Notes under the pieces: generated by a model
What the model was told of the DNA's origin: nothing
Databases searched by the model: none
The model's input: only the letters and a program-made list of their open reading frames with translations
DNA from: an uncultured Bryobacterales bacterium
Lineage (GTDB): Bacteria > Acidobacteriota > Terriglobia > Bryobacterales > UBA6623
Reading direction: 5' to 3'
Length of the DNA stretch: 64,000 nt
Assembly: GCA_951813065.1 (NCBI GenBank)
Contig: CATOTH010000010.1
Span: 248,001-312,000, forward strand
Shown here: positions 52,513-64,000 of the stretch, in pieces
Layout: each line of letters begins with the position of its first letter
How positions within the stretch are numbered: position 1 is the first letter of the stretch
Translations under genes and position numbers: made by a program

Positions 52513-53012
52513 GGATTTCTCCCGAGATCCTGACGGTGGAAGCCGAGGCAACCGGATTCAGGGCCGAGATGCTGGAGAAGTCGGTCCGGATGCTGGCCCT
52601 GCTCGACGCCATTCGCGATCATCCCCTGCTTGACGGGAAGCTTGCGCTCAAGGGCGGAACGGCTCTGAACCTGTTCGTGTTCAATGTCCCGAGATTGTCC
52701 GTGGACATCGATCTGAACTACGTGGGTGCCGCAAGCCGGGACGACATGCTGGAAGAGCGCCCCAAGATCGAAGCCGCGATCCAGGCCGTGTTTCGCCGCG
52801 AGGACTTCGCGGTTCGACGGATGCCCGAAGAACATGCTGGAGGGAAGTGGTCGATCCGCTATGCTGGCGCGTCAGGGCACAGCGGCCGGCTCGACGTGGA
52901 TCTGAATTTCATGTACCGCGTCCCCTTGTGGCCGGTCACGACCATGGATTCGCGCCCGCTCGGAAGTTGGCGCGCCCTGCCGATGCCACACAAGTTGACA
53001 CTTGACTTTTGA
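52509..53012 (+). pseudogene. AbiEii-type nucleotidyltransferase toxin, truncated by insertion
   Basis: GTG at 52509 overlaps the antitoxin stop (GTGA). The 167 residues include HPLLDGKLALKGGTALNLFV, the GGTALN motif, and LSVDIDLNYVGAASRDDMLE, the DID metal-binding pair of nucleotidyltransferase-fold type IV toxins, then GRLDVDLNFMYRVPLWPVTT. Similarity stops near SWRALPMP at about 52985, and the frame ends in seven unrelated residues at the left edge of the DUF4338-IS4 element. The normal protein has roughly 100 more residues, so the toxin is most likely inactive. Confidence 0.75.
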
Positions 53013-53037
53013 CATCGCTCTGTGCCATTTCTGGAGC

Positions 53038-54765
53038 ATGTATGAGCAACATCGGATCCCGACCACATTGGCGCGGGGCCCTGCGCTGATCCAGGTCCGC
53101 AAACTCGTGGCCGACGCGGGCGACGCCAGCCGCACCGAAATTGGCCGGCAGGTCTGCGCCCGGTTCGGATTCCTCGATGCCCACGGCAAGCCGCAGGTCG
53201 CCAGTTGCATGCAGGCCTTGCGCGCTCTCGCAGCCGCCCGCCAGATCGACTTGCCCGCGCCCCGGCACAACCGCCAGCGTGGCCGCCCGCGCCGCCTGGA
53301 CCGTCCCGTGCCCCCGCCCGTCGGCCTGCCCGCCCGGGTCGACCGGGTGCGCGACCTGCAACTCGTCGCGGTCCGCGACGAGCACCAGCGCCGCGTCTGG
53401 AACGAACTCATCGCCCGCGAGCATCCCCGCGGAGCTGTCCTCCACGCCGGAGCCCAGTTGCGCTACCTGCTGGTCTGCGAACATGGCGTGCTCGGCGCGC
53501 TCGGCTTCGCCGCGGCCGCTCTCACGCTGGCCGCCCGCGACGCCTTCATCGGCTGGGACCCCGCCACCCGCTCGCGCCACCTGCATCGCGTGCTCGGCCT
53601 GAGCCGCTTCCTGATCCGACCCTCCGCCGCCTGCCGCAATCTCGCCTCCAAGGCCCTCTCGCTGGCCCTGCGCCGGCTGCCCGACGACTGCCTGCGGCGC
53701 TACGGCTACCGCCCCCTGCTGGTGGAAACCTTTGTCTCTCAAGACCAAGCGGGCACCTCGCTGGCGGCCGCCAACTGGCAGCGCATCGGCGTGACCGCCG
53801 GGCGGGGCCGCTTGGCGGCCGCCGGCACGCAGGTGGACGTGAAGGCCATCTGGCTGTATCCGCTGGCGCGCAACTGGCGCGCGCAACTGGGCCTGCCAGC
53901 GCCGGGCGTGCCGGCGCTGGCACTGGGGGCGGGCCTGGCCTCCGGCGAGTGGGCGCACAACGAGTTCGGGACCGCGCCGCTGGGCGATGTACGCTTGACT
54001 CGGAGGCTGGTGCAGAGCGTGGAGATCCAGGCGGCAGCGCCCACCAAGTCGTTTCCCGGAGCGGCGCAGAAGGACTTGGCGGCAGTGCGGGGCTACTACC
54101 GGATGATCGACCAGCCGGCGGATTCGGAGGTGACGCCGGAGCACATCCTGGCGCCGCACCGGGAGCGCACGCTGCAGCGCATGCAGGGCCAGTCGGCAGT
54201 GCTGTGCATCCAGGACGGGACGGACCTGAATTTCGCGGAGCATCCGGGCTGCGTGGGACTGGGCCTGATCAGCAAGAACAAGGGCTCGGCGGGGACGCTG
54301 GGGATCCACATGCACTCGACGCTGGTGGTCAACGGGGAGGGGATCCCGTTGGGGGTGCCGCAGATCCAGTACGAGGCCCCGGACGGGCAGGCGGAGCAGG
54401 GCAAGCCGCTGGAGGAGCGCAAGACGATGCGCTGGATCCGGGGGTTGCGGGAGTGTGCGGAACTGGCGGAGCAGTTACAAGGGGTGCGGCCGGTAGCGGT
54501 GCTGGACCGGGAAGGGGACGTGTACGCGATCTTCGCCGAGCAGCGGCGGTTGGGGACGGTGGACCTGCTGGTGCGGGCGCAGCACGACCGGGTGCTGGGC
54601 AAGGGGGTGCCGAAGCTGTTCGAGGCGGTGCGGCAGGAGGCCGCGCAGGGGCGTTTGGAGATTCACGTGGCGCGGCAGAGCGCGCGGCGGTCGAGCCGCG
54701 GGCAGCCGGGCCGGCCGGCGCGCGAGGAACGCGTGGCGGAGGTGGATCTGAGATGGCAGTGTTGA
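53038..54765 (+). CDS. DUF4338-IS4 transposase fusion, C-terminus missing
   Basis: The 575-aa protein starts at ATG 53038 (GGAG upstream). Residues about 15-300 are DUF4338 (RDAFIGWDPATRSRHLHRVL, NLASKALSLALRRLPDDCLR, RPLLVETFVSQDQAGTSLAA, NWQRIGVTAGRGR). Residues about 310-375 are a Tn5-like DNA-binding domain (EFGTAPLGDVRLTRRLVQSV, AAVRGYYRMIDQP). Then comes an IS4 RNase-H-fold domain (AVLCIQDGTDLNFAEHPGCV, GIHMHSTLVVNGEGIPLGVP, PVAVLDREGDVYAIFAEQ) with the first two acidic catalytic positions. It stops after AEVDLRWQC, before the YREK region with the catalytic glutamate, so it is truncated by about 130 residues. It interrupts abiEii. Confidence 0.82.
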   Translation: MYEQHRIPTTLARGPALIQVRKLVADAGDASRTEIGRQVCARFGFLDAHGKPQVASCMQALRALAAARQIDLPAPRHNRQRGRPRRLDRPVPPPVGLPARVDRVRDLQLVAVRDEHQRRVWNELIAREHPRGAVLHAGAQLRYLLVCEHGVLGALGFAAAALTLAARDAFIGWDPATRSRHLHRVLGLSRFLIRPSAACRNLASKALSLALRRLPDDCLRRYGYRPLLVETFVSQDQAGTSLAAANWQRIGVTAGRGRLAAAGTQVDVKAIWLYPLARNWRAQLGLPAPGVPALALGAGLASGEWAHNEFGTAPLGDVRLTRRLVQSVEIQAAAPTKSFPGAAQKDLAAVRGYYRMIDQPADSEVTPEHILAPHRERTLQRMQGQSAVLCIQDGTDLNFAEHPGCVGLGLISKNKGSAGTLGIHMHSTLVVNGEGIPLGVPQIQYEAPDGQAEQGKPLEERKTMRWIRGLRECAELAEQLQGVRPVAVLDREGDVYAIFAEQRRLGTVDLLVRAQHDRVLGKGVPKLFEAVRQEAAQGRLEIHVARQSARRSSRGQPGRPAREERVAEVDLRWQC

Positions 54766-55135
54766 ATCCCTATTTATTTCGGCAGTAGGAGGGGGGTTTT
54801 TCTCGTATTAGTTTGACGCTGAAATGCTTGGAAATCAGTTGTAGAGCGGAAATCCGAGAGGGGCGTTGATGGGGCAGTGAGGCAGGTGCAGGAGGAGCAG
54901 CGGGACCGGTTGGAGGGACCCGGATTCTTCTGGCAGTAGTTGTGGCCAGCGAGCGGGTCCGGATGGAACAGGGCCCGTCGCTGTAGGGCCCCGATGGGCC
55001 GGCCTGTGGAGCAGTCAGCCGGTCAGGCCAGTTTTGAGGTGGGCAGGGTGGCGCCGCGGCTCAGGGATGGGGTAAGACACAGGGTGTGGCCCGCACGGTT
55101 GCAGCCGCCGGGCCGTGGTCGGTCCTGCCGTGCAG
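54760..55135. other. Non-coding junction, possible left end of the DUF6431/DDE transposon
   Basis: The IS4 reading frame loses family similarity at TGT (54760-54762), and the following stretch (TGTTGAATCCCTATTTATTT) is AT-rich compared with its surroundings. Tn7- and Mu-like elements begin with TGT, so this is the best candidate for the element's left end. No gene, clear terminal repeat or promoter can be supported in the remaining 370 bases. Confidence 0.3.
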
Positions 55136-55759
55136 ATGCGTTTCGCAACTAACCTGACCGACAAGGAATATGTTAGCCGACGGGCCTGGAATACTGTCAG
55201 CGCTCCGCCGTGTCCGTGGTGCAAGCCGGGCACGTGCGAACTGGCCCCGCACGGGTTTTACCCGCGCGTGAAGCCGCAGGGGGCCTGGATCCGGCGCTTC
55301 ATCTGCCGGACGGTGAAGCGCACAGTGAGCCTGTTGCCGGACTGTTTCGCGGCGTGGGTCCAGGGAACTCTGGAGGAGCAGGAAGAGCCGGTGCGGGTGG
55401 CGGAGAGGGCCGCGACGCAGGCGGCGGCGGTGGAGCAGGTGCGGCCACCCGGGGAGTGCAGTCTGGCGAGCGCACAGCGCTGGCTGCAGCGGCGGATGCG
55501 GTGGGTGGGGGTCCTGCTGGTGGCGGTCAAGGGGCTGTACCCGGAGCGGTTCACGGGGGTGGAGCCGACGTTGGCTGGATTCGGGCAGCAGTTGGGCAGC
55601 GAGACGGTGCTGCGAACGCTGCGGGAGGTGGCGGAGGCGCAGTTGGGGAATCTGCCAGCTCCGGTGGGATTCCGCCGCGTGAGTGTGACGCTGAGAACAG
55701 GGCCCCGGGCGGCAACAAAACAAGCCTCTGGACTGTCTCCACCGCCTGGCAGCGGCTAG
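55136..55759 (+). CDS. DUF6431 transposon-associated zinc-ribbon protein
   Basis: The 207-aa protein contains CPWCKPGTCELAPHGFYPRV followed by WIRRFICRTVKRTVSLLPDC. This is the DUF6431 pattern of a zinc-ribbon DNA-binding domain in small proteins encoded beside integrase-fold transposases. The spacing of one ribbon cysteine pair is altered (CRTVK where CxxC is usual), so metal binding may be weakened. It is followed 46 bases later by the transposase gene. I start at the ATG at 55136; a GTG at 55115 is possible. The role within the transposon is unknown, probably accessory DNA binding. Confidence 0.7.
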   Translation: MRFATNLTDKEYVSRRAWNTVSAPPCPWCKPGTCELAPHGFYPRVKPQGAWIRRFICRTVKRTVSLLPDCFAAWVQGTLEEQEEPVRVAERAATQAAAVEQVRPPGECSLASAQRWLQRRMRWVGVLLVAVKGLYPERFTGVEPTLAGFGQQLGSETVLRTLREVAEAQLGNLPAPVGFRRVSVTLRTGPRAATKQASGLSPPPGSG

Positions 55760-55805: not shown

Positions 55806-56605
55806 ATGCCAGCAGACGCAAAGGATCCACGAGAGGCCGTGGCCCTGTTCCGGTTCGGCCTGATTGCACCCGTGCTGCATCTGGCGCCCGGGCCCGAGCG
55901 AGCGGCCGCCCTGCAGCAGATCGCCGACCGCGAGCACGCGATTCCCGGCAGCCGGCGGCGGCGTGTCGCGGTCTCCACACTGCAGACTTGGCGGCGGCGG
56001 CACCAGCAGGGCGGGTTCCAGGCGCTGCACCCGAAGCGGCGTAGCGACAGGAACCAACCGCGGCGCCTGCCGCCGGAGGTGGCCGCCCTGCTGACCGCGA
56101 TCAAGGAGCGCGAGCCGCGGCTGACGGTGAAGGCCGTCATCCGCCAGGCGCACGATTCGGGCCGGGTGCCGGACGGACTGCGCCTGGCTCCCTCGACCGT
56201 CAACCGGCTGCTCAAGCAGGCTGGCCTGATGGAGCGGCCCGCCGAGCAGCCGGCGGGAGGGGACCTGCGGCGCTACCAATGGCGGTTTGCCAACGACCTA
56301 TGGCAAGCGGATGCACTGCACGGCCCGAAGATCGCGGCGGCGGAGCCGGGGCGCAGGCAGGCCAAGGTCTACTTGCTGGCCACGCTGGATGACGCCACCC
56401 GGGTCGTGCCGCACGCGGCCTTCGCCTACTCCGAGAACGCCGACAACTTCCTGCCGTCTTCCGGCAGGCGGTGCTCAAACGGGGTGTGCCGCAACGCCTG
56501 TATTGCGACAACGGATCGACCTTCCGCAGCAAGCAGCTGGAGCTGGTCTGCGCCCAGCTGGGCACCAGTTTGGTGCATGCGCGGGTGTATCACCCATCGG
56601 GGAAG
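55806..56605 (+). pseudogene. Integrase-core (DDE) transposase, piece 1 of 3
   Basis: ATG 55806 opens an N-terminal helical domain, an HTH (RRRVAVSTLQTWRRRHQQGG, FQALHPKRRSDRNQ) and a second helical domain. The RNase-H fold follows with the first catalytic Asp in NDLWQADALHGPKI and VYLLATLDDATRVVPHAAFA. At about 56456 one base is missing: the frame must shift to read FRQAVLKRGVPQRLYCDNGS (second Asp), then QLELVCAQLGTSLVHARVYHPSGK. Similarity stops exactly at the AAG of that last lysine, where the serine-recombinase module begins. The continuation GKIERFF with the third catalytic residue is at 59913. Confidence 0.85.
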
Positions 56606-56614
56606 TCAGTGGTT

Positions 56615-58711
56615 TCATGATGCGTCCCTTCCGAACTGTTGTGCGGCGTCCGTCGGCTCCGCCCCTCGCTGATCGTAACCTGCCGGCAGCTTGTACATGC
56701 TGCGGGGCTTCTTCGCGGCCTTGATTTGGTCGCAAAGAATCCGGCCCTGCCGAGCGAGCGCTTGCACGCTCCAGCAGGGCAGCCCGAGTTGGCTGGCGAG
56801 TTCGCTGACGGTCACGTAGCCCTGCGCGCGCAGCTGCTCCCGGCGGCGCTGCAGATGCCCCTTCATCGCGACCCGCTGGCGTAGCCGGTAGACATGCCGC
56901 AGGGTGTACGGCGCCCCGTTCCACAGGCGGTGCCCGGCCTGGTTGAGCAGTTCGGCAGCCTCGGCGTCGGAATGCGTGTCCAGGGCCGCGTCCAAGGCGG
57001 CCACCGCAGCGGGACAGAGAGGGTACTTCAGCTGCCGCGGCCGGTTCAGCTGGACCTGATCGAGCGTCAGCGCCTTGCCGCCGCGCAGGCGCAGGTCGAC
57101 GCGGACCTCGTAGCCCGCGCGAGTCAGCGTGGCGTCCTCGACCAGCAGCCGCAGCAGCCGCTTGCGGTCGGCGTGGTCGGTTGTCGGCGCGTCCCACACC
57201 TGAGCGAAGTCGCGGGCCAGCTCCTCGATGCGCCGCAGCTGTTCGGCTGACATCTCCGCGTCGCGGGCCGCCTGCCGCTCCTCGCGTTCCCGCCCGGCCT
57301 CCTCCAGCTCCCGCAGGCGCTCGTTCCAGGCGGCCTCCAGCGGGGCCGCCACCAGGCGGTTGACCGGGTCCGCCGCATAGTAGCGCCTCTGGGCCAGCTC
57401 GGCCTCATAGACCAGCCGCTCGATGCGCAGGGCGCGCTGCGCGTCCGCCTCGGCGAAGTCAGCCCGCACTTGCTCCTGCACGGCCAGCGCGAGCGCAATG
57501 TTCTCGCCGTTCATCGCCCCGACCGCGAACCGCCCGACCGCGGCGTCGACGGCCTCCGCGCGGATCCACAGGCAGCCCTTCTCGCCCTTCCGCACGGTCG
57601 CCTCCTTGCAGGTGTAGTGCACTTGCGCAGGCTGGTTCCGATCCGGCCGCGCCCGGCTGTATTTCACGTTCAGGCGGCCACCGCACTGGCCGCACAGCGC
57701 GATGCCCTGCAACAACGCCGCCCCGTTCCGCGGCGCGCTGAGGCGGGCCGGGTTGGCGGCGAAGCAGCTCCCGTTGCGGGCCAGAGTCGCGAGGTTGCGG
57801 CCGTACTCCTCCCAGTCGATGAAGCCGACATGGTGGCCGGGGATGCACACCTCCCACTCGTCCAGCGGCAGCGTCCGGTAGCGGACGCTGCCGTCGGCCT
57901 GGCGCAGGGTGCGGGTCTGGCCGTAGGCGAAGGCCCCCGCGTAGGCGGGATTCCTGAGAATGCGCCGGATCTTGGGGTGGTCGGGCAGGTTCCAGCGCAG
58001 CACGCCGCGGCAGGGCCCGGTGCGGGCGCGGTGCGGCAGCAGGATGTTCTCGTCGCGGAACCACTTCACGACTTGCATCGCCGAGCCCTTGTCACGGAAG
58101 GCCGTGAACACGCGGCGGATCGCCGCGACCACCTGGCGGTCGGGGTCGAACACGACCTGGCCGTCCTCGTCGTAGACCAGCCCCAGCGGCAGCGGCACGC
58201 GCAGCTCGCCGCGGGCCGCCTTGCTGCGCTGCCCGCCCAGCAGGCGGGCGCGGATGCCCGCCAGCTCGAATTCACTGAGACTGCCCTTGATGTCGAGCAG
58301 CAGCTTGTCCGAACTGTCGTTGGGGTCGTGCACGCCGTACTCGTCGAGGATCAGCGTGTCGGCGAGGCGGGCGAACTGCACCAGCTGGGCCCAGTCGCAG
58401 TTGTCGCGGGCCAGCCGCGAAACCTCCAGGCAGAGCACGATGCCGATCTCTCCGGCGGCGATGCGGGCGGTCAAGTCGCGGAAGCCGCTGCGGTTGGCGG
58501 CATACGCCCCCGACAGGCCCTGGTCGTCGTCGATCAGGCGAATGCGGTCCTCGCTCCAGCCCAGCGCGATCGCCGAGCGGCGCAGGTCGTACTGGCGGTG
58601 CGTGCTCTCGGTGTTGCAGGCGACTTGCTTGAGTGAGGACTGGCGGATGTACAGGCAGGCCTCGCGGGCGAGGTGGCGCGGCTTGACCTTGCCGGCGGCG
58701 GTTTCAAGCAT
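56615..58711 (-). CDS. Large serine recombinase
   Basis: The 698-aa protein starts at ATG 58711 with AAGGAG six bases upstream. The resolvase domain begins ACLYIRQSSLKQVACNTEST with catalytic Ser25 in YxRxS, and continues with GIVLCLEVSRLARDNCDWAQ and LLLDIKGSLSEFELAGIRAR. A recombinase domain follows (HPKIRRILRNPAYAGAFAYG), then the zinc ribbon (CGQCGGRLNVKYSR ... YTCK), a long coiled coil (AQRRYYAADPVNRLVAAPLE, LEEAGREREERQAARDAEMS) and an extra HTH-like C-terminus (YVTVSELASQLGLPCWSVQA). It would mediate integration and excision of the module. Confidence 0.92.
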   Translation of the reverse strand: MLETAAGKVKPRHLAREACLYIRQSSLKQVACNTESTHRQYDLRRSAIALGWSEDRIRLIDDDQGLSGAYAANRSGFRDLTARIAAGEIGIVLCLEVSRLARDNCDWAQLVQFARLADTLILDEYGVHDPNDSSDKLLLDIKGSLSEFELAGIRARLLGGQRSKAARGELRVPLPLGLVYDEDGQVVFDPDRQVVAAIRRVFTAFRDKGSAMQVVKWFRDENILLPHRARTGPCRGVLRWNLPDHPKIRRILRNPAYAGAFAYGQTRTLRQADGSVRYRTLPLDEWEVCIPGHHVGFIDWEEYGRNLATLARNGSCFAANPARLSAPRNGAALLQGIALCGQCGGRLNVKYSRARPDRNQPAQVHYTCKEATVRKGEKGCLWIRAEAVDAAVGRFAVGAMNGENIALALAVQEQVRADFAEADAQRALRIERLVYEAELAQRRYYAADPVNRLVAAPLEAAWNERLRELEEAGREREERQAARDAEMSAEQLRRIEELARDFAQVWDAPTTDHADRKRLLRLLVEDATLTRAGYEVRVDLRLRGGKALTLDQVQLNRPRQLKYPLCPAAVAALDAALDTHSDAEAAELLNQAGHRLWNGAPYTLRHVYRLRQRVAMKGHLQRRREQLRAQGYVTVSELASQLGLPCWSVQALARQGRILCDQIKAAKKPRSMYKLPAGYDQRGAEPTDAAQQFGRDAS

Positions 58712-58973
58712 GGGAGTCTCCTTGCGGGGCGCACAGCAGTGCGCGGATCTGGCGGGCCGCCTCGGCCACGGCGGTCGGGGCCGAGGCGGCCCGTGCCGCG
58801 CCATCCGAGCGGGGCTCGGCAGCCGGGGCCGGCGCGGGGCGCGCGGCGGTCAGGGCCAAGGTCGCCGCCAGACCGTGCCAGCGGAACGTGGCCAGCGCCC
58901 GGCTGTCGTGGCTGGCCAGCCACTGCCAGCGCCAGCGCTCGTAGCGCCCGCTGGCATCGGCACCCCAGTTCAT
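58704..58973 (-). CDS. 89-aa accessory protein of the recombinase module
   Basis: Reads MNWGADASGRYERWRWQWLA, continuing SHDSRALATFRWHGLAATLA, then an alanine- and proline-rich linker and VAEAARQIRALLCAPQGDSHA. The ATG overlaps the HTH stop (TGATG) and the stop lies inside the recombinase start region (8-base overlap), so it is translationally locked between them. It is tryptophan-rich at the N-terminus. No family is recognised; an accessory or directionality role is a guess from position. Confidence 0.6.
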   Translation of the reverse strand: MNWGADASGRYERWRWQWLASHDSRALATFRWHGLAATLALTAARPAPAPAAEPRSDGAARAASAPTAVAEAARQIRALLCAPQGDSHA

Positions 58974-59488
58974 CAGGGGCGCTCCGAGCGTTTTTTTTCG
59001 CGGCGCGCAAGCGCCTTCTCGAGGCCGCGCGGGTGCAGCCGGACGCCGAAGCGCTGTTCGATCAGCGCAACCAGCGTGGCACTGGAGGTGCGGCCGTGCG
59101 CGGCCCGGTAGTCGTCGACAAAGTCCAGCATCGCGGGCGTGATCTTGTGCGGGCCGCGGGGGCCGCGCCGCTCGGGGATGAGGCCCCGCAGGCCGTCCCG
59201 GGCGAAGGCCTTGACGGCCCGGAAGCAGGTCGGCAGGGAGACGCCGAAGCGCTCGGCGGCCTTGGCCAGCGTGAGCTTGTCGAAGTGGACGCGACGGACC
59301 ATTTCGTAGCGCACCTGCAGGATGTCGCGAGGATCGAAGAACTCGCTTTGGTCGAAGCGCGGATCGCGGACACGTTCGGGATGCGGGTTGAGCAGGCCGG
59401 CTTGGCGGAGGCGTGCGTCCTTGTCGGAGGGTGGGGGCGCGGAGTCTGGCATGGCTGGCATGGGTAGATGGGCAGGGAGGAATTTCAT
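58973..59488 (-). CDS. Helix-turn-helix protein of the recombinase module
   Basis: The 171-aa protein has a Helix_turn_helix domain: FFDPRDILQVRYEMVRRVHF, LTLAKAAERFGVSLPTCFRA, VKAFARDGLRGLIPERRGPR. A winged helix follows: HKITPAMLDFVDDYRAAHGR, SATLVALIEQRFGVRLHPRG. The arrangement resembles the DNA-binding N-terminus of IS630/IS481-type transposases without the catalytic domain. It probably binds element DNA or regulates the operon. The first ATG (59488) is two bases from a TATAAT, so if that -10 is used, translation must start at a later methionine (59461 or 59452). Confidence 0.75.
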   Translation of the reverse strand: MKFLPAHLPMPAMPDSAPPPSDKDARLRQAGLLNPHPERVRDPRFDQSEFFDPRDILQVRYEMVRRVHFDKLTLAKAAERFGVSLPTCFRAVKAFARDGLRGLIPERRGPRGPHKITPAMLDFVDDYRAAHGRTSSATLVALIEQRFGVRLHPRGLEKALARREKKRSERP

Positions 59489-59490
59489 AA

Positions 59491-59496
59491 ATTATA
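59491..59496 (-). promoter_or_regulatory. Candidate -10 box inside the recombinase module
   Basis: The minus strand reads TATAAT (full consensus) in an AT-rich gap of 98 bases between the DUF5372 and HTH genes. No convincing -35 is found. Its closeness to the annotated HTH start argues for a shorter HTH protein if it is active. Confidence 0.4.
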
Positions 59497-59586
59497 ACGC
59501 ACCACAGGGGCCAGTCTGGGCAGAAATCCCCTGTAATTTGGCTATTAGCGGCAGATAGCGCCCTAATTTCTGAAAAATAACCATAC

Positions 59587-59856
59587 TTATTTATGATCAT
59601 ACGATGCCCCCCTCTGCAGCAACGCATCCACAACCGCCCGCAACTCGAGCAGATCGTCGACACGCCACGGCGAGCGCCCCGCCGAGGCGCGTTCGAAATC
59701 GTCCGCCAGCCGGTAGCTCGTCCATGCAAGCGGAAGCGTAAGCAGGGTTTCGTCCTCCCGCACGCAGCGCACCAGGCGCACGCCGCCGGTCGTCAATCGG
59801 GAGTAGAACGGAAACGATCGCCCGCGCAGCGGATGGTGCGGATGGGTGATGACCAC
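59587..59856 (-). CDS. DUF5372 protein of the recombinase module
   Basis: The 89-aa protein reads MVITHPHHPLRGRSFPFYSR, then LVRCVREDETLLTLPLAWTS, the pattern of DUF5372 (ITHPxHPLxGxxF ... PLxWT), small proteins found next to serine recombinases and integrase-fold transposases. The start is GTG at 59856. The fold is probably a small beta barrel like those of Mu-transposase C-terminal domains. It is the first gene of the module, 53 bases from its right edge. Confidence 0.7.
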   Translation of the reverse strand: MVITHPHHPLRGRSFPFYSRLTTGGVRLVRCVREDETLLTLPLAWTSYRLADDFERASAGRSPWRVDDLLELRAVVDALLQRGASYDHK

Positions 59857-59909
59857 CTCATCCGGACTCCCCGCTTGTTCGGGCTGGCCCGCTTTCGGGA
59901 ACTTTTGAT

Positions 59910-60041
59910 AAGGGCAAGATCGAAAGATTTTTTCGTCGAGTCCGCGCCGAGTTGTTGCCCACCTTGCGTCCCGAGGACTATGCCAGCCTGGCGGCCTTGA
60001 ACCGCCGTCTCGCCGCCTGGATCGAAGGCGAGTACCACCAT
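59910..60041 (+). pseudogene. Integrase-core (DDE) transposase, piece 2 of 3
   Basis: The frame reads KGKIERFFRRVRAELLPTLR then PEDYASLAALNRRLAAWIEG and EYHH. GKIERFF carries the third catalytic residue (Glu) and continues piece 1 without gap or overlap. Similarity ends at CACCAT (60036-60041), where the RIT element begins. The next residues of the family pattern, a PHxGL segment, are found at 63485. There is no start codon of its own. Confidence 0.85.
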
Positions 60042-60061
60042 AAATGTTGCGCGCAACATTT
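60042..60061. repeat. 20-bp perfect palindrome at the left RIT border
   Basis: AAATGTTGCGCGCAACATTT is self-complementary over all 20 bases and lies directly inside the left border, outside the 108-bp inverted repeat. Its half-site TGTTGCG recurs within the inverted repeat. It has no counterpart at the right border, so the two ends are not equivalent. Confidence 0.85.
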
Positions 60062-60063
60062 GC

Positions 60064-60171
60064 GGTGACATGTTGCGGTGCGGGGAATGTTGCGACGCGC
60101 CGGAATGCGCTTGTCTCTCAGCGGTGAAGCCGGACTCTCCGCAACATTCCTTTCTGCGCTCAGAGTGACCG
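60064..60171 (+). repeat. Left 108-bp inverted repeat of the RIT element
   Basis: Begins GGTGACATGTTGCGGTGCGG and ends CTCAGAGTGACCG. It matches the reverse complement of 63375-63482 at every position but one (C at 60095 against T). It contains an internal inverted pair GGAATGTTGCG (60084-60094) and CGCAACATTCC (60140-60150), likely recombinase-binding arms. Confidence 0.95.
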
Positions 60172-60206
60172 ATGATCGTCGTTTTGAATTCCAAGGAGAG
60201 ACGATC

Positions 60207-61451
60207 ATGTTCGACAATCTGTTCAAATGTCCCGATACGATTGAGGCGTACAGCTCGGCGCCGCTTGCCGATGAGCGGCTGAGCTTTCTGCACCATCTAC
60301 GGGAATCCGGATCCGGGACAACCTCCCTGCGGCATCATGCGTGCAGCCAGCTACGCCTGGTTCGGCTCCTGGAACTGACCGACGACCAGTCGGTCAGCGT
60401 TGTCCGGATCGAGGCCGCGGTCCGTTCGGCTGGGGGCGGATCAGGATTTCCCCGACAGGCGTCGGCCAGTGTCATCAAGGTTTTTGTTGCTAACGCCGTG
60501 CGGTGGATGCGGTTCCTCGGTCGGCTGGAAGAGCCGGGAGCGGTGCGCCACTCCCATGCCGTCGAACTCGATGTCTGGGTGGACTGGATGCGCCGAGACC
60601 GCGGGCTCTCGCAGACAACCGTCGGTGCTCTACGTCGGGTCGTCGAAGACTTCTTCGACCGGCTTGCTCCGAGCGGCACCGTCCTGTCTGCAATCACCAT
60701 CTCCGACATCGACCGAACATGCGCCGCATGGTACGCCGAGAGACAGCTCGGCCGGAGGACGCGGAACATCTACGCGCGGCGTCTTCGCGCTTTCTTCCTC
60801 TTCGCAGAATCCCGCGGCTTGTGCACACCGGACCTGTCCGTGGCGATCGTGCCGCCCCGGGTGTATGCGGAGACCGGGATCCCGCGCGGGTTCGCCCGCG
60901 GCGATGTCCTTCGCCTGCTGGCCACGACCGAGGGCGACCAGCCGTCCGATATCCGCGACCGGGCCATGCTGATGCTGTTGATCACCTACGGTCTCCGGTC
61001 CGGCGAGGTCGCCGGCCTGCGGCTTGACGATGTCGACTGGCTGGAGGAGACGCTTCGCGTCCGCTGCCCGAAGCCGGGAACCACGCGTCTCCTTCCGCTC
61101 TCGCCCGCTGCCGGACACGCGCTCCTGCGCTATCTTCGCGAGGTCCGTCCCCGACATCCTGACCGGACCCTGTTCCTCACCCTCAAGGCCCCGTTCCAGG
61201 CGATCGACAGTCGTGCTTGCTCCGGTGTCGTCAGGCGTCGCGCAGACCGCCTCGGCATACGGGCACCGTGTCGCGGGGCGCATGCGCTGCGCCATGCGGC
61301 AGCCCAGCACCTTCTCGACCAGGGGATGTCGATGAAGGTGATCGGAGACTATCTCGGCCACCGCAGCCCCTCCACCACGGCGATCTACGCAAGAATCGAT
61401 CTCAAGGCCCTGCGCGAGGTTGCGGATTGCGATCCGGGAGACCTGTCATGA
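60207..61451 (+). CDS. ritA: RIT tyrosine recombinase A
   Basis: The 414-aa protein starts at ATG 60207 with AAGGAG eight bases upstream. An N-terminal SAM-like core-binding domain is followed by the catalytic domain with first Arg in TYGLRSGEVAGLRLDDVDW, the HxLRH box HALRHAAAQHLLDQG, and DYLGHRSPSTTAIYARI with the final His and nucleophilic Tyr. All catalytic residues are visible. It is the first of three recombinases, and its stop overlaps the next ATG (ATGA). In RIT elements the three proteins act together, but the division of labour is unknown. Confidence 0.9.
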   Translation: MFDNLFKCPDTIEAYSSAPLADERLSFLHHLRESGSGTTSLRHHACSQLRLVRLLELTDDQSVSVVRIEAAVRSAGGGSGFPRQASASVIKVFVANAVRWMRFLGRLEEPGAVRHSHAVELDVWVDWMRRDRGLSQTTVGALRRVVEDFFDRLAPSGTVLSAITISDIDRTCAAWYAERQLGRRTRNIYARRLRAFFLFAESRGLCTPDLSVAIVPPRVYAETGIPRGFARGDVLRLLATTEGDQPSDIRDRAMLMLLITYGLRSGEVAGLRLDDVDWLEETLRVRCPKPGTTRLLPLSPAAGHALLRYLREVRPRHPDRTLFLTLKAPFQAIDSRACSGVVRRRADRLGIRAPCRGAHALRHAAAQHLLDQGMSMKVIGDYLGHRSPSTTAIYARIDLKALREVADCDPGDLS

Positions 61452-62398
61452 CTCTGGGCGAGGCCATCGACACGTACATCCTCTGGCGGCGATCCCACGG
61501 CACGAAGTTCGACGACGGTGCCAGGATACTGCGTCGGTTCCTGAAGGGGGTCGATGCGGATGCCCCCTGCGATGCGGTCACGAGGGACGCGGTCCGTACC
61601 TTCCTCGCAGGGACCCGACCGCCGACCAGCTACCGGAATGCCAAGTACACTGCTCTGTCTGGATTGTACCGCTTTGCCATCAGTCGCGGCCACGCGACCC
61701 GGTTTCCGCTGCCCGAACGGGAGAGCGAGCCGAGGGCATCGGCGCCCCTGCCGCCCTACATTTACACTGGGGACGAAGTTCGGCGTCTTCTCGGCTCGAC
61801 CGCAGCCTCCCGCGCCCGTGCAAGGCAACTGGACGGCGACACCCTAAGGACCTTGATCCTGCTGCTGCACGGATCCGGACTGCGCAGCGGCGAAGCGCTC
61901 CGACTCACGCTCGCGGATGTCGACCTTGATGACGCGGTGCTCACCGTTCGCGATTCGAAGTTCTACAAGTCGCGCCTGGTTCCGGTCGGGGAACGGCTCG
62001 CCCATGTGTTGCGCGACCACGCCGCCAGGCGCCTGCGGCGCCCGCAGCCGGAGGGACGGGATTCGGCCTTCCTCGCGAACCGTGACGGAACACCCCTGTT
62101 GGCGGGAGTCGTCAGGAATGTCTTCGCCAAGCTGCTCCGCGATGCCGGGATCGGCGGCGGGGACAGCAGGTGCCGGGGTCCCTGCCTGCATTCGTTCCGG
62201 CACGGATTCGCCGTCGGACGGCTGAACGCCTGGTACCGGCAGGGCGCCGACGTGCAGCGACTGTTGCCGGTGCTCTCCACCTACCTCGGTCACAGGAACC
62301 CGGCCGGAACCCAAGTCTACCTGAGCATGACCCCGGAAAGGCTCGTTCAGGCATCGCTCCGCTATGAACACTACATGAAGGGAGATCAAGATGCGTGA
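61448..62398 (+). CDS. ritB: RIT tyrosine recombinase B
   Basis: The 316-aa protein has a core-binding domain (LGEAIDTYILWRRSHGTKFD) and a catalytic domain with LLHGSGLRSGEALRLTLADV (first Arg), CLHSFRHGFAVGRLNAW (HxxR) and TYLGHRNPAGTQVYLSM (His and Tyr). It is shorter than ritA. The start overlaps ritA by four bases and the end overlaps ritC by eight, so the trio is translated as one unit. The ATG at 61448 is chosen because the longer open frame upstream lies inside ritA in another frame. Confidence 0.9.
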   Translation: MTLGEAIDTYILWRRSHGTKFDDGARILRRFLKGVDADAPCDAVTRDAVRTFLAGTRPPTSYRNAKYTALSGLYRFAISRGHATRFPLPERESEPRASAPLPPYIYTGDEVRRLLGSTAASRARARQLDGDTLRTLILLLHGSGLRSGEALRLTLADVDLDDAVLTVRDSKFYKSRLVPVGERLAHVLRDHAARRLRRPQPEGRDSAFLANRDGTPLLAGVVRNVFAKLLRDAGIGGGDSRCRGPCLHSFRHGFAVGRLNAWYRQGADVQRLLPVLSTYLGHRNPAGTQVYLSMTPERLVQASLRYEHYMKGDQDA

Positions 62399-63386
62399 TT
62401 GCAGGACAATGGGGGCGTGGCTCCGGCGCTACCTCGAAGAGCACATCGTCAGTGAACGGAACCTGGCGGAGAACACCCGACAGAGCTATCGGGATACGTT
62501 CACCCTCTTGCTGCCATTCATCAGCGCAGGAGCCCGGAAACCGATCGACCGGCTGGTCATCGACGATCTCACCGCCGAAAGGCTGCGCGCCTTCCTCGAC
62601 CATGTCGAGACGGAGCGTGGCTGCTCCGTGGAAACCCGGAACCGGCGCCTGACCGCCGTTCGCGCCTTCGCCCGCTTCGTGGCCAGCCGCGACCCCGCCC
62701 TGGTCGCCTGGTGCGGCCACATCCGCGCCATCCCGGTGAAGCGGGCAGCGCCGAAGCCGGTCGCCTGGCTGACCCGGGCGGAGACGGACGCCCTCCTTGC
62801 CGCCCCCGACAGGAAAACGCCAAGGGGCCGCACCGAACACGCCATCCTGATCTTCCTCGTGAACACCGGTGCCCGCGTCTCGGAGGCCTCCGGGCTCCGG
62901 ATCGCCGACATTGCGTTCAGCCAAAGAAACGGAGGCTCTGCCCTTGCCACTCTCCATGGCAAGGGCGGCAAAGTCCGCCAATGCCCGCTGTGGAAGGAAA
63001 CCGAACGGGTGGTGGCGGAACAGACAGCAGGGCGCTCAAACGGCGACCCCGTGTTCTCCAGCCGCTACGGCAGGGCCTATACCCGCTTCGGCATCTATCG
63101 CGTGGTCGAGCGCTGTGCAGCGGCAGTGCCGGAACTGTCCGGGAAGACGACAACCCCGCATGTGCTTCGACACACGGCTGCTTGCAGCCTCGTACGCGCC
63201 GGAGTCGATCTCAATACCATCCGTGCCTGGCTCGGCCATGTCAGTCTCGATACAACCAACATCTACGCCGAGATCGACCTCGAGATGAAGGCGCGGGCGA
63301 TGGCACTCTGCGATGCGGTCGAGGAGGGACCGACGCGGCCGTGGAAGGAGGATCGAGGGGTGATGGCGTTCCTCCGGTCACTCTGA
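62391..63386 (+). CDS. ritC: RIT tyrosine recombinase C
   Basis: The 331-aa protein has WLRRYLEEHIVSERNLAENT and RQSYRDTFTLLLPFI in the core-binding domain. The catalytic domain has FLVNTGARVSEASGLRIADI (first Arg), TPHVLRHTAACSLVRAG (HxLRH) and WLGHVSLDTTNIYAEI (His, Tyr). ATG 62391 lies eight bases before the ritB stop, with GGAG upstream. Its last four codons lie inside the right inverted repeat, so the inverted repeat has a coding constraint on one side only. Confidence 0.9.
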   Translation: MRDCRTMGAWLRRYLEEHIVSERNLAENTRQSYRDTFTLLLPFISAGARKPIDRLVIDDLTAERLRAFLDHVETERGCSVETRNRRLTAVRAFARFVASRDPALVAWCGHIRAIPVKRAAPKPVAWLTRAETDALLAAPDRKTPRGRTEHAILIFLVNTGARVSEASGLRIADIAFSQRNGGSALATLHGKGGKVRQCPLWKETERVVAEQTAGRSNGDPVFSSRYGRAYTRFGIYRVVERCAAAVPELSGKTTTPHVLRHTAACSLVRAGVDLNTIRAWLGHVSLDTTNIYAEIDLEMKARAMALCDAVEEGPTRPWKEDRGVMAFLRSL

Positions 63387-63482
63387 GCGCAGAAAGGAAT
63401 GTTGCGGAGAGTCCGGCTTCACCGCTGAGAGACAAGCGCATTCCGGCGCATCGCAACATTCCCCGCACCGCAACATGTCACC
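63375..63482 (-). repeat. Right 108-bp inverted repeat of the RIT element
   Basis: Reverse complement of 60064-60171 with a single mismatch. It overlaps the 3' end of ritC (63375-63386) at its inner edge and the CACCAT border repeat at its outer edge. Confidence 0.95.
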
Positions 63483-63484
63483 AT

Positions 63485-63946
63485 GCTCCCCACCACGGCC
63501 TCGCCGGTGACACGCCCTTGGATCGCTGGGCACAGGTCGGTGACCACGTGCGCTTTGCCGGCCCCGGCATCGACCTGCGGTGGATCTTCAGCTACCGCTT
63601 CGTGCGCCGCGTCAGCCGCGCCCGCACGGTCAACCTGCACGGCCGCCAGTACGAGACCGTAGCTGGGCTGGCCGGCCAGAAGGTCACCTTGGTGGTCGAG
63701 CCCGACGCCCCGCCCGAGCGGGCCCTGACGGTCCTGCACGAGGACGGCGAGAGCAGCCAGGCCACCCTGGTCGATCTCCAGGTCAACGCCCGCGCACGGC
63801 GCAGCCAGCCGCCCGCTGGGGACCCGCCGAAGCCCCCCGCCCGGCCCGCAACTCCCGACCGGGACCAGCGCCCCGCTCCGGCCAAACAGCAACTCCGGTT
63901 GCGCCAGCTGGCCGGCCCCGCTGCCGACCCCAAGGACAAACCCTGA
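63485..63946 (+). pseudogene. Integrase-core (DDE) transposase, piece 3 of 3
   Basis: The frame resumes APHHGLAGDTPLDRWAQVGD, the conserved post-catalytic segment, followed by FSYRFVRRVSRARTVNLHGR and YETVAGLAGQKVTLVVEPDA, a Mu-transposase-C-like beta barrel, and a proline- and glutamine-rich tail ending KDKP. TGA at 63944-63946 overlaps the ATG of the next gene (TGATG). Pieces 1 to 3 joined make a transposase of about 463 residues. Alone this part has no start codon in the transposase frame. Confidence 0.87.
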
Positions 63947-64000
63947 TGTACCGCCCGCATTTCGGCCTCACCGGCCTGCCCTTCGAAGCGCCCGCTGACA
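63946..64000 (+). CDS. ExeA/TnsC-like AAA ATPase of the transposon, first 18 codons
   Basis: The visible residues MYRPHFGLTGLPFEAPAD match the invariant start (MYxxHFGLxxxPF) of ExeA-type AAA ATPases that act as target selectors with integrase-fold transposases, comparable with TnsC, TniB or MuB. The ATG overlaps the transposase stop. The gene continues beyond the window, so its Walker motifs cannot be checked. Confidence 0.65.
   Translation, partial: MYRPHFGLTGLPFEAPAD

Follow-up and report, generated by a model that had tools for sequence, protein, structure and literature searches.

The usual homes of site-specific elements are tRNA genes and conserved housekeeping genes. Among the large serine recombinases (LSRs) a multi-targeting, TndX/TnpX-like clade has been described, for which DUF4368 is a typical domain, present in 63% of the clade (Durrant et al. 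2022; PMC10083194); outside this clade DNA competence genes are enriched among the LSR targets (PMC10083194). Among the RIT elements, one of Acidithiobacillus was reported in 2012 inside a Tn6049-related transposase gene (PMC3414803). Here we analyse a stretch of 64,000 nucleotides from an uncultured Bryobacterales bacterium (G000:C10:248001-312000; called the window below, its numbering being used for all feature positions). It contains a Tn6049-like DDE transposase gene (55806-63946) that was interrupted by an element carrying a large serine recombinase and by a RIT element, leaving three pieces. In this genome and in dozens of others the serine-recombinase module recurred at one and the same codon in further transposase genes, which makes the split of the gene far more than a chance event.

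The structure of the gene before both insertions could be read from six uninterrupted homologs in other genomes (L133-L138). In these the pieces were contiguous: (R)GKIER stood at the start of piece 2, and EGEYHx (or DNGYH, DQRYH) was followed directly by the homolog of piece 3. Removal of 56603-59909 (3307 bp) and 60042-63484 (3443 bp) rejoined the gene as in 6/6 homologs. The core AAG is present twice, at 56603-56605 and at 59910-59912, and an exact excision therefore takes out 56603-59909 (or 56606-59912). The original prediction had described one transposase gene in three exact pieces, separated by two different invaders, a large serine-recombinase module and a RIT. Both invaders were confirmed (serine recombinase on the - strand; ritA, ritB and ritC on the + strand) and the junctions proved exact, the homologs carrying continuous GKIER and EYHx regions where the joined pieces have them. 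What did not stand were the coordinates of the first cut and the reading frame of piece 1. The cut at 56606-59909, thought to be free of loss or gain, would yield HPSGKKGKIER with one Lys too many, and piece 1 does not run in one frame to VYHPSGK, because a missing base near 56465 shifts the frame (between the same endpoints the window has 146 nt and L133 has 147 nt). As judged from its sequence, this one-base loss makes the transposase gene of the window a pseudogene independently of both insertions.

The Bryobacterales genome contained three copies of the serine-recombinase module with 100% identity over about 3.3 kb, in the window, in L019 and in L020. Their junctions were constant, AAG/TCAGTGG on the left and TTTTGAT/AAG on the right (the slash marks the edge of the element), and all three copies broke the host gene at one codon, that of the residue at position -4 from the catalytic Glu (E-4). 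The window copy was flanked on both sides by the Tn6049-like gene TnA. In L019 the left flank was the N-terminal half of an IS21 istA gene (...CRPYRART/K) and the right flank was of the TnA type, while L020 had on its left TnB (...YQPQG/K), whose protein is 53% identical to TnA, and on its right the C-terminal half of an IS21 istA gene (KGKVERPIRYVRES) followed by an istB-like gene. Between L019 (around 12998) and L020 (around 5829 and 9143), which lie about 490 kb apart on one contig, the IS21 and Tn6049-like halves were exchanged. These mixed flanks point either to exchange between module copies or to mis-assembly at repeats. It is possible, but rather doubtful, that the arrangement of the flanks in this genome stems in part from mis-assembly at the repeated 3.3-kb modules; this would concern L019 and L020 only and not the site. 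Swapping the right halves of the two loci would restore one complete IS21, but homologous or site-specific exchange between the copies would give the same picture as mis-assembly, and finished plasmids show matched halves around the module.

The hypothesis of a fixed target was formed on these copies and on plasmid relatives, and was then put to the test with further genomes: a scan of 84,980 genomes yielded 422 relatives, of which 80 loci, spread over many phyla, were used. On finished plasmids 6/6 relatives (LSR 43-45% identical) lay in transposase genes, namely ISNCY in NGR234, IS21 in Aromatoleum, Sinorhizobium meliloti and Rhizobium, and IS3 in Rhodococcus and S. medicae. Five were situated at the E-4 codon; in the sixth (L029, S. 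medicae) the left junction carries a small deletion and is not exactly placeable. Left flanks were read from the stop codon of the LSR gene, which lies about 5-50 bp from the junction, and were counted as readable if they comprised at least 38 aa. Of the 50 readable flanks (45 genome loci and 5 plasmid loci), 45 ended at the E-4 AAN codon of IS3, IS21, IS481 or ISNCY genes (40/45 genome loci and 5/5 plasmid loci). Hidden Markov models for transposases placed 26 of them and BLASTP to one of those 26 placed 17 more, 16 of which ended no more than 3 residues from the same place; the alignment of L050 was 14 residues short on both sides. The remaining two (L032 and L074) were placed by the right flank or the motif only.

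The end positions on the NCBIfam models were derived from the 26 left pieces, some of which match two models. On the IS3 model the pieces ended at 313 in 10/11 cases (L052 at 312) and on the IS21 model at 226 in 6/10 and within 224-228 in 9/10, the ends other than 226 being 215, 224, 225 and 228. On the IS481 model the end was at 228 in L082, L087, L090 and L109, and on the ISNCY_2 model at 235 in 4/4 (L025, L096, L097 and L108). The right flanks opened with the complementary motifs KGKVER, KPKVEA, NAVAET, NGMAEA and NPYAER. Several short contigs start at the core AAGG or no more than 3 bp from it, as expected for the ends of a repeated element. It had been proposed that integrase-fold transposase genes are preferred landing sites and that the junctions are a natural record of the target. 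For the serine-recombinase module the left flanks strongly support this, and listing its insertion points in other genomes brought out the recurrent E-4 codon in transposase genes. The target is in fact sharper than had been supposed: it narrows to a single codon, E-4.

An explanation for this precision may lie in the DNA that encodes the active site. The motifs K-[GAPS]-[KR]-[VI]-E, N-A-x-x-E, N-G-x-x-E and N-P-Y-x-E have the DNA pattern AAN-(9 nt)-GAR in common, so that one degenerate site would serve IS3, IS21, IS481, ISNCY and Tn6049-like genes. The best explanation of the locus, which we consider quite probable on the sequences compared, is that a 3.3-kb element resembling an insertion sequence (IS) was moved by its own LSR into the AA core of the E-4 codon, and that the RIT entered by tyrosine recombination. 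The LSR would recombine the joined ends of the element (attP, core AA) with a chromosomal attB, in which the first two bases of the Asn or Lys codon at E-4 of DDE transposase genes would form the AA core. The outcome would be a scarless insertion of fixed orientation which splits the transposase active site. The junctions of the copies in this genome and of the relatives fit an AA core for the predicted attP x attB recombination, and the circle joint of the element is predicted to read ...GGGAACTTTTGAT-AAG-TCAGTGGTTTCATG... In such a scheme the element would be autonomous, and the helix-turn-helix (HTH) and DUF5372 proteins that it encodes may assist the LSR. Recognition of DNA with an AA core, rather than of a protein or a transposon, is favoured because of two observations. 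The flanks L083-left and L044-right, from two contigs of one Desulfopila metagenome-assembled genome, together make up a citrate synthase gene that is split at K-I-K-P-E, that is AAG...GAG, a look-alike of the transposase site. Moreover, the E-4 residue is Arg in 6/6 unhit Tn6049-like homologs versus Lys (AAG) in the gene that was hit.

Several observations weigh against this explanation. Five of the 50 left flanks were off the motif (L034, L035, L044, L083 and L091); by eye, L034 lies in a different part of a transposase-looking gene. The closest relative (L031, 79%) sits in a non-transposase gene, and specificity in the immediate clade of the window LSR may be less strict. Conservation of the site beyond the AA core is weak. 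The GA at +12 of the right flanks is conserved by the search pattern itself, which demanded it, and the invariance there arises by selection; the left-flank result is independent of the pattern. The folds of the HTH and DUF5372 proteins had no confident match in the PDB and their roles, as directionality or targeting factors, are guesses. Finally, the integration and the circular form of the 3.3-kb element are inferred.

It might be thought that the LSR inserts at any AA core and that the insertions observed are simply those that fell into dispensable sequence, insertion sequences for example. Transposase genes are indeed abundant and dispensable, the core is merely AA, and several flanks lie elsewhere (L031, L035, L091 and the citrate synthase gene). 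However, dispensability does not account for the use of a single codon and a single orientation in four different IS families, and such survivorship, already disfavoured on these grounds, is improbable. A targeting step in which the HTH protein and/or the DUF5372 protein steer the LSR to transposons, instead of the LSR reading attB, is unlikely, though somewhat less so: both genes are kept in 77/80 related loci, and the HTH protein matches the N-termini of IS630/IS481 transposases and, weakly, TnsB (E 7e-3). Recognition of DNA at the cut site nevertheless agrees with the precision to a single codon and with the look-alike in citrate synthase, and the distant LSRs L143 and L145, which have no annotated HTH gene, still lie in transposase genes.

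The scarless junctions could also be read as those of a reversible, intron-like switch that is kept by the transposons, excision by the LSR restoring the transposase gene in the manner of XisF-like, developmentally excised elements. The LSR does match XisF, but below the threshold (E 8e-22, 77.7 bits versus a cut-off of 375). Identical modules in unrelated transposons of one genome indicate that the module moves independently, and the window gene is frameshifted and has received a second insertion, all of which renders a switch very improbable.

More distant LSRs were inspected at seven plasmid loci (34-43% identity), by eye from translations and annotations. L139 and L144 were in IS66 tnpB, L142 and L143 in IS66 tnpC, and L145 in an IS3-type gene near the C-terminal FYN motif, while the flanks of L140 and L141 were ambiguous. 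This suggests that sister clades use other transposase motifs, although the pattern is not established. Loss of the DDE catalytic motif costs a transposon its transposition. We would give about even chances to a broader view, in which a widespread lineage of LSR elements would live as parasites of mobile elements, reading the DNA of the DDE motif and disarming transposons, while sister clades would read motifs of IS66 tnpB/tnpC and of the IS3 C-terminus and the HTH protein would take part in targeting.

The features of the locus are listed in Table 1. All three domains of the LSR (PF00239, PF07508 and PF13408) scored above their cut-offs, as in large serine recombinases generally; the Y-x-R-Q-S motif was invariant across the aligned relatives, and the nearest solved relatives were YokA/SPbeta chains (E 5e-10). 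The length of the module was mostly 3.30-3.41 kb in the 41 loci measured, with outliers of 3.02, 3.11, 3.26, 3.47 and 3.50 kb that may be due to wrongly chosen ends. The likeness of the HTH protein to IS630/IS481-type transposases (NCBIfam) is to their DNA-binding N-terminus; its predicted model had a pLDDT of 91 and gave only weak structural matches, TnsB coming first. The model of the DUF5372 protein had a pLDDT of 88. The idea that the latter might be a transposase C-terminal barrel was not supported, as a PDB search gave no match below E 0.001. The small third open reading frame (ORF) was detected by tblastn in 49/80 loci, a figure that is indicative only, since the window query was in the wrong frame. 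Directly upstream of the split gene there are transposase-like ORFs at 53002-54765 and 55115-55759 (by eye, from the ORF list). Judged by eye, the region around the gene looks like an insertion-sequence island.

Table 1. Features of the interrupted transposase gene and of the two inserted elements (TIR, terminal inverted repeat)
Feature	Position	Strand	Evidence
Transposase piece 1 (HTH domains and most of catalytic core)	55806..56602	+	Pfam HTH_32/HTH_28; homologs L133-L138; 1 base missing near 56465
Serine-recombinase element, 3307 bp; bounding core AA(G) repeated at 56603 and 59910	56603..59909	-	Junctions of three own-genome copies and relatives
Large serine recombinase, 698 aa; Resolvase, Recombinase, Zn-ribbon	56615..58711	-	Pfam; alignment; PDB and NCBIfam relatives
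Small third ORF, about 86 aa, annotated counterparts in many related modules	58704..58970	-	ORF list
HTH protein, 171 aa, without catalytic domain	58973..59488	-	Pfam, NCBIfam
DUF5372 protein, 89 aa	59587..59856	-	Pfam PF17342, E 1.5e-17
Transposase piece 2 (KGKIERFF... to EYHH), holds catalytic Glu	59910..60041	+	tblastn versus L133-L138
RIT element, 3443 bp, CACCAT adjoining both sides	60042..63484	+	Sequence, copies compared
20-bp perfect palindrome AAATGTTGCGCGCAACATTT, outside ritA-side TIR	60042..60061		Sequence
Left TIR of RIT, 108 bp	60064..60171		Sequence
ritA tyrosine recombinase	60207..61451	+	Pfam Phage_integrase
ritB tyrosine recombinase, 4 bp overlap with ritA	61448..62398	+	Pfam Phage_integrase
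ritC tyrosine recombinase, 8 bp overlap with ritB	62391..63386	+	Pfam Phage_integrase
Right TIR of RIT, 108 bp	63375..63482		Sequence
Transposase piece 3 (C-terminal domain)	63485..63946	+	tblastn versus L133-L138
Start of ExeA-like AAA ATPase gene, same Tn6049-like transposon, runs past window end	63946..64000	+	ORF in L022; named by resemblance

The second invader showed the typical elements of a RIT: three adjacent and overlapping tyrosine recombinase genes, TIRs of 108 bp with 99% identity, a 20-bp palindrome and a length of 3443 bp (about 3.5 kb is typical). Three copies were present in the genome (window, L019 and L021), each in a different Tn6049-like transposase homolog but all at one site. 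The copy of L021 is inverted; it lies at the end of a contig and abuts, at the equivalent point, a homologous gene with 74% DNA identity. The RITs of the window and L019 had 0 differences over 3443 bp, while the right flank had 9 in about 514 bp; the differences began at both edges of the RIT, and the chance of an unchanged RIT is 4e-27. On the left the crossover bases were AT versus GC and there was an 8-bp deletion nearer the LSR module. Because the RITs are identical while their flanks differ, the sequences favour separate insertions, gene conversion being the alternative. The RIT would have entered the C-terminal part of the transposase gene by tyrosine recombination, at a site that contains CACC.

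We interpret the 20-bp palindrome as the joint of a circular RIT form. In related RITs it is located at the ritA end (L111, L112 and L024) or at the ritC end (L113 and L124). In the circular joint the palindrome would be flanked by two core sites in inverted orientation, both of them usable; a 24-bp part of the joint palindrome was found by automated check and the longer palindrome by eye. The preference for integrase-fold transposase genes that had been suggested for both invaders is supported for the RIT within this genome, with three copies at the same site, but not in general. Related RITs lie within or next to quite different genes (IS66 tnpC, IS21 istA, toprim genes, and a tyrosine-integrase gene at its 3' end), and general targeting of DDE transposases by RITs was rejected on these varied flanks. 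A second RIT type is present in the genome in two copies, L024 (G000:C2:459000-472000) and L124 (G000:C5:68000-78000), with RitC 43% identical and the palindrome at opposite ends. L024 also carries a second large serine recombinase and reverse-transcriptase-like ORFs; no clear transposase flank was seen around this LSR (C2:463 kb).

The serine recombinase appears to exploit the most conserved coding stretch of very abundant bacterial genes, the transposases. This would explain how it can find a place to land in nearly every genome without much cost to the host, and would make the element a natural brake on insertion sequences. The junctions provide dozens of natural attB/attP pairs for an apparently uncharacterised LSR clade, with an attB that is common to unrelated gene families. 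The RIT copies further support repeated insertion at one site, and a testable two-core model of the RIT attachment site is proposed.

How, then, do the two elements compare with known systems? With the serine integrases of the phiC31, Bxb1 and SPbeta YokA type the module shares the Resolvase, Recombinase and Zn-ribbon domains and scarless junctions that fit a dinucleotide core. Unlike them, it is a compact multicopy element of 3.3 kb with HTH and DUF5372 partners and without phage or conjugation genes, and its attB would be the DDE active-site motif of transposases. As in the TndX/TnpX-like clade, one LSR lineage uses many target genes, but here the many targets share one functional transposase motif. 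DUF4368, which is common but not universal in that clade, was absent from the Pfam scan of the window LSR. The IS607-type insertion sequences combine a small serine transposase with TnpB; the recombinase of the module has 698 aa, and no TnpB was found among its genes (ORF list and Pfam). The main text of PMC10083194 was found to make no mention of insertion sequences as LSR targets, and the open-access literature yielded nothing on DUF5372 or on LSRs that target transposase genes, an absence which is weak evidence. The family of LSR elements is widespread and apparently undescribed.

The host gene appears to resemble the Tn6049 family in being followed by genes for an ExeA-like ATPase and a toprim-like protein (by eye, named by resemblance), and differs in that the copy in the window is broken in three ways. 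The RIT has the overlapping recombinase trio, the length of about 3.5 kb, the inverted repeats with a palindrome and the Tn6049-like transposase gene in common with the Acidithiobacillus RIT (PMC3414803). Unlike that case, three copies occupy one site of three homologs, one copy being inverted, and the palindrome is found at either end in related RITs. The RIT is of a known kind with ordinary anatomy; what appears to be new is an element of the serine-integrase kind whose target is unusual and defined by function.

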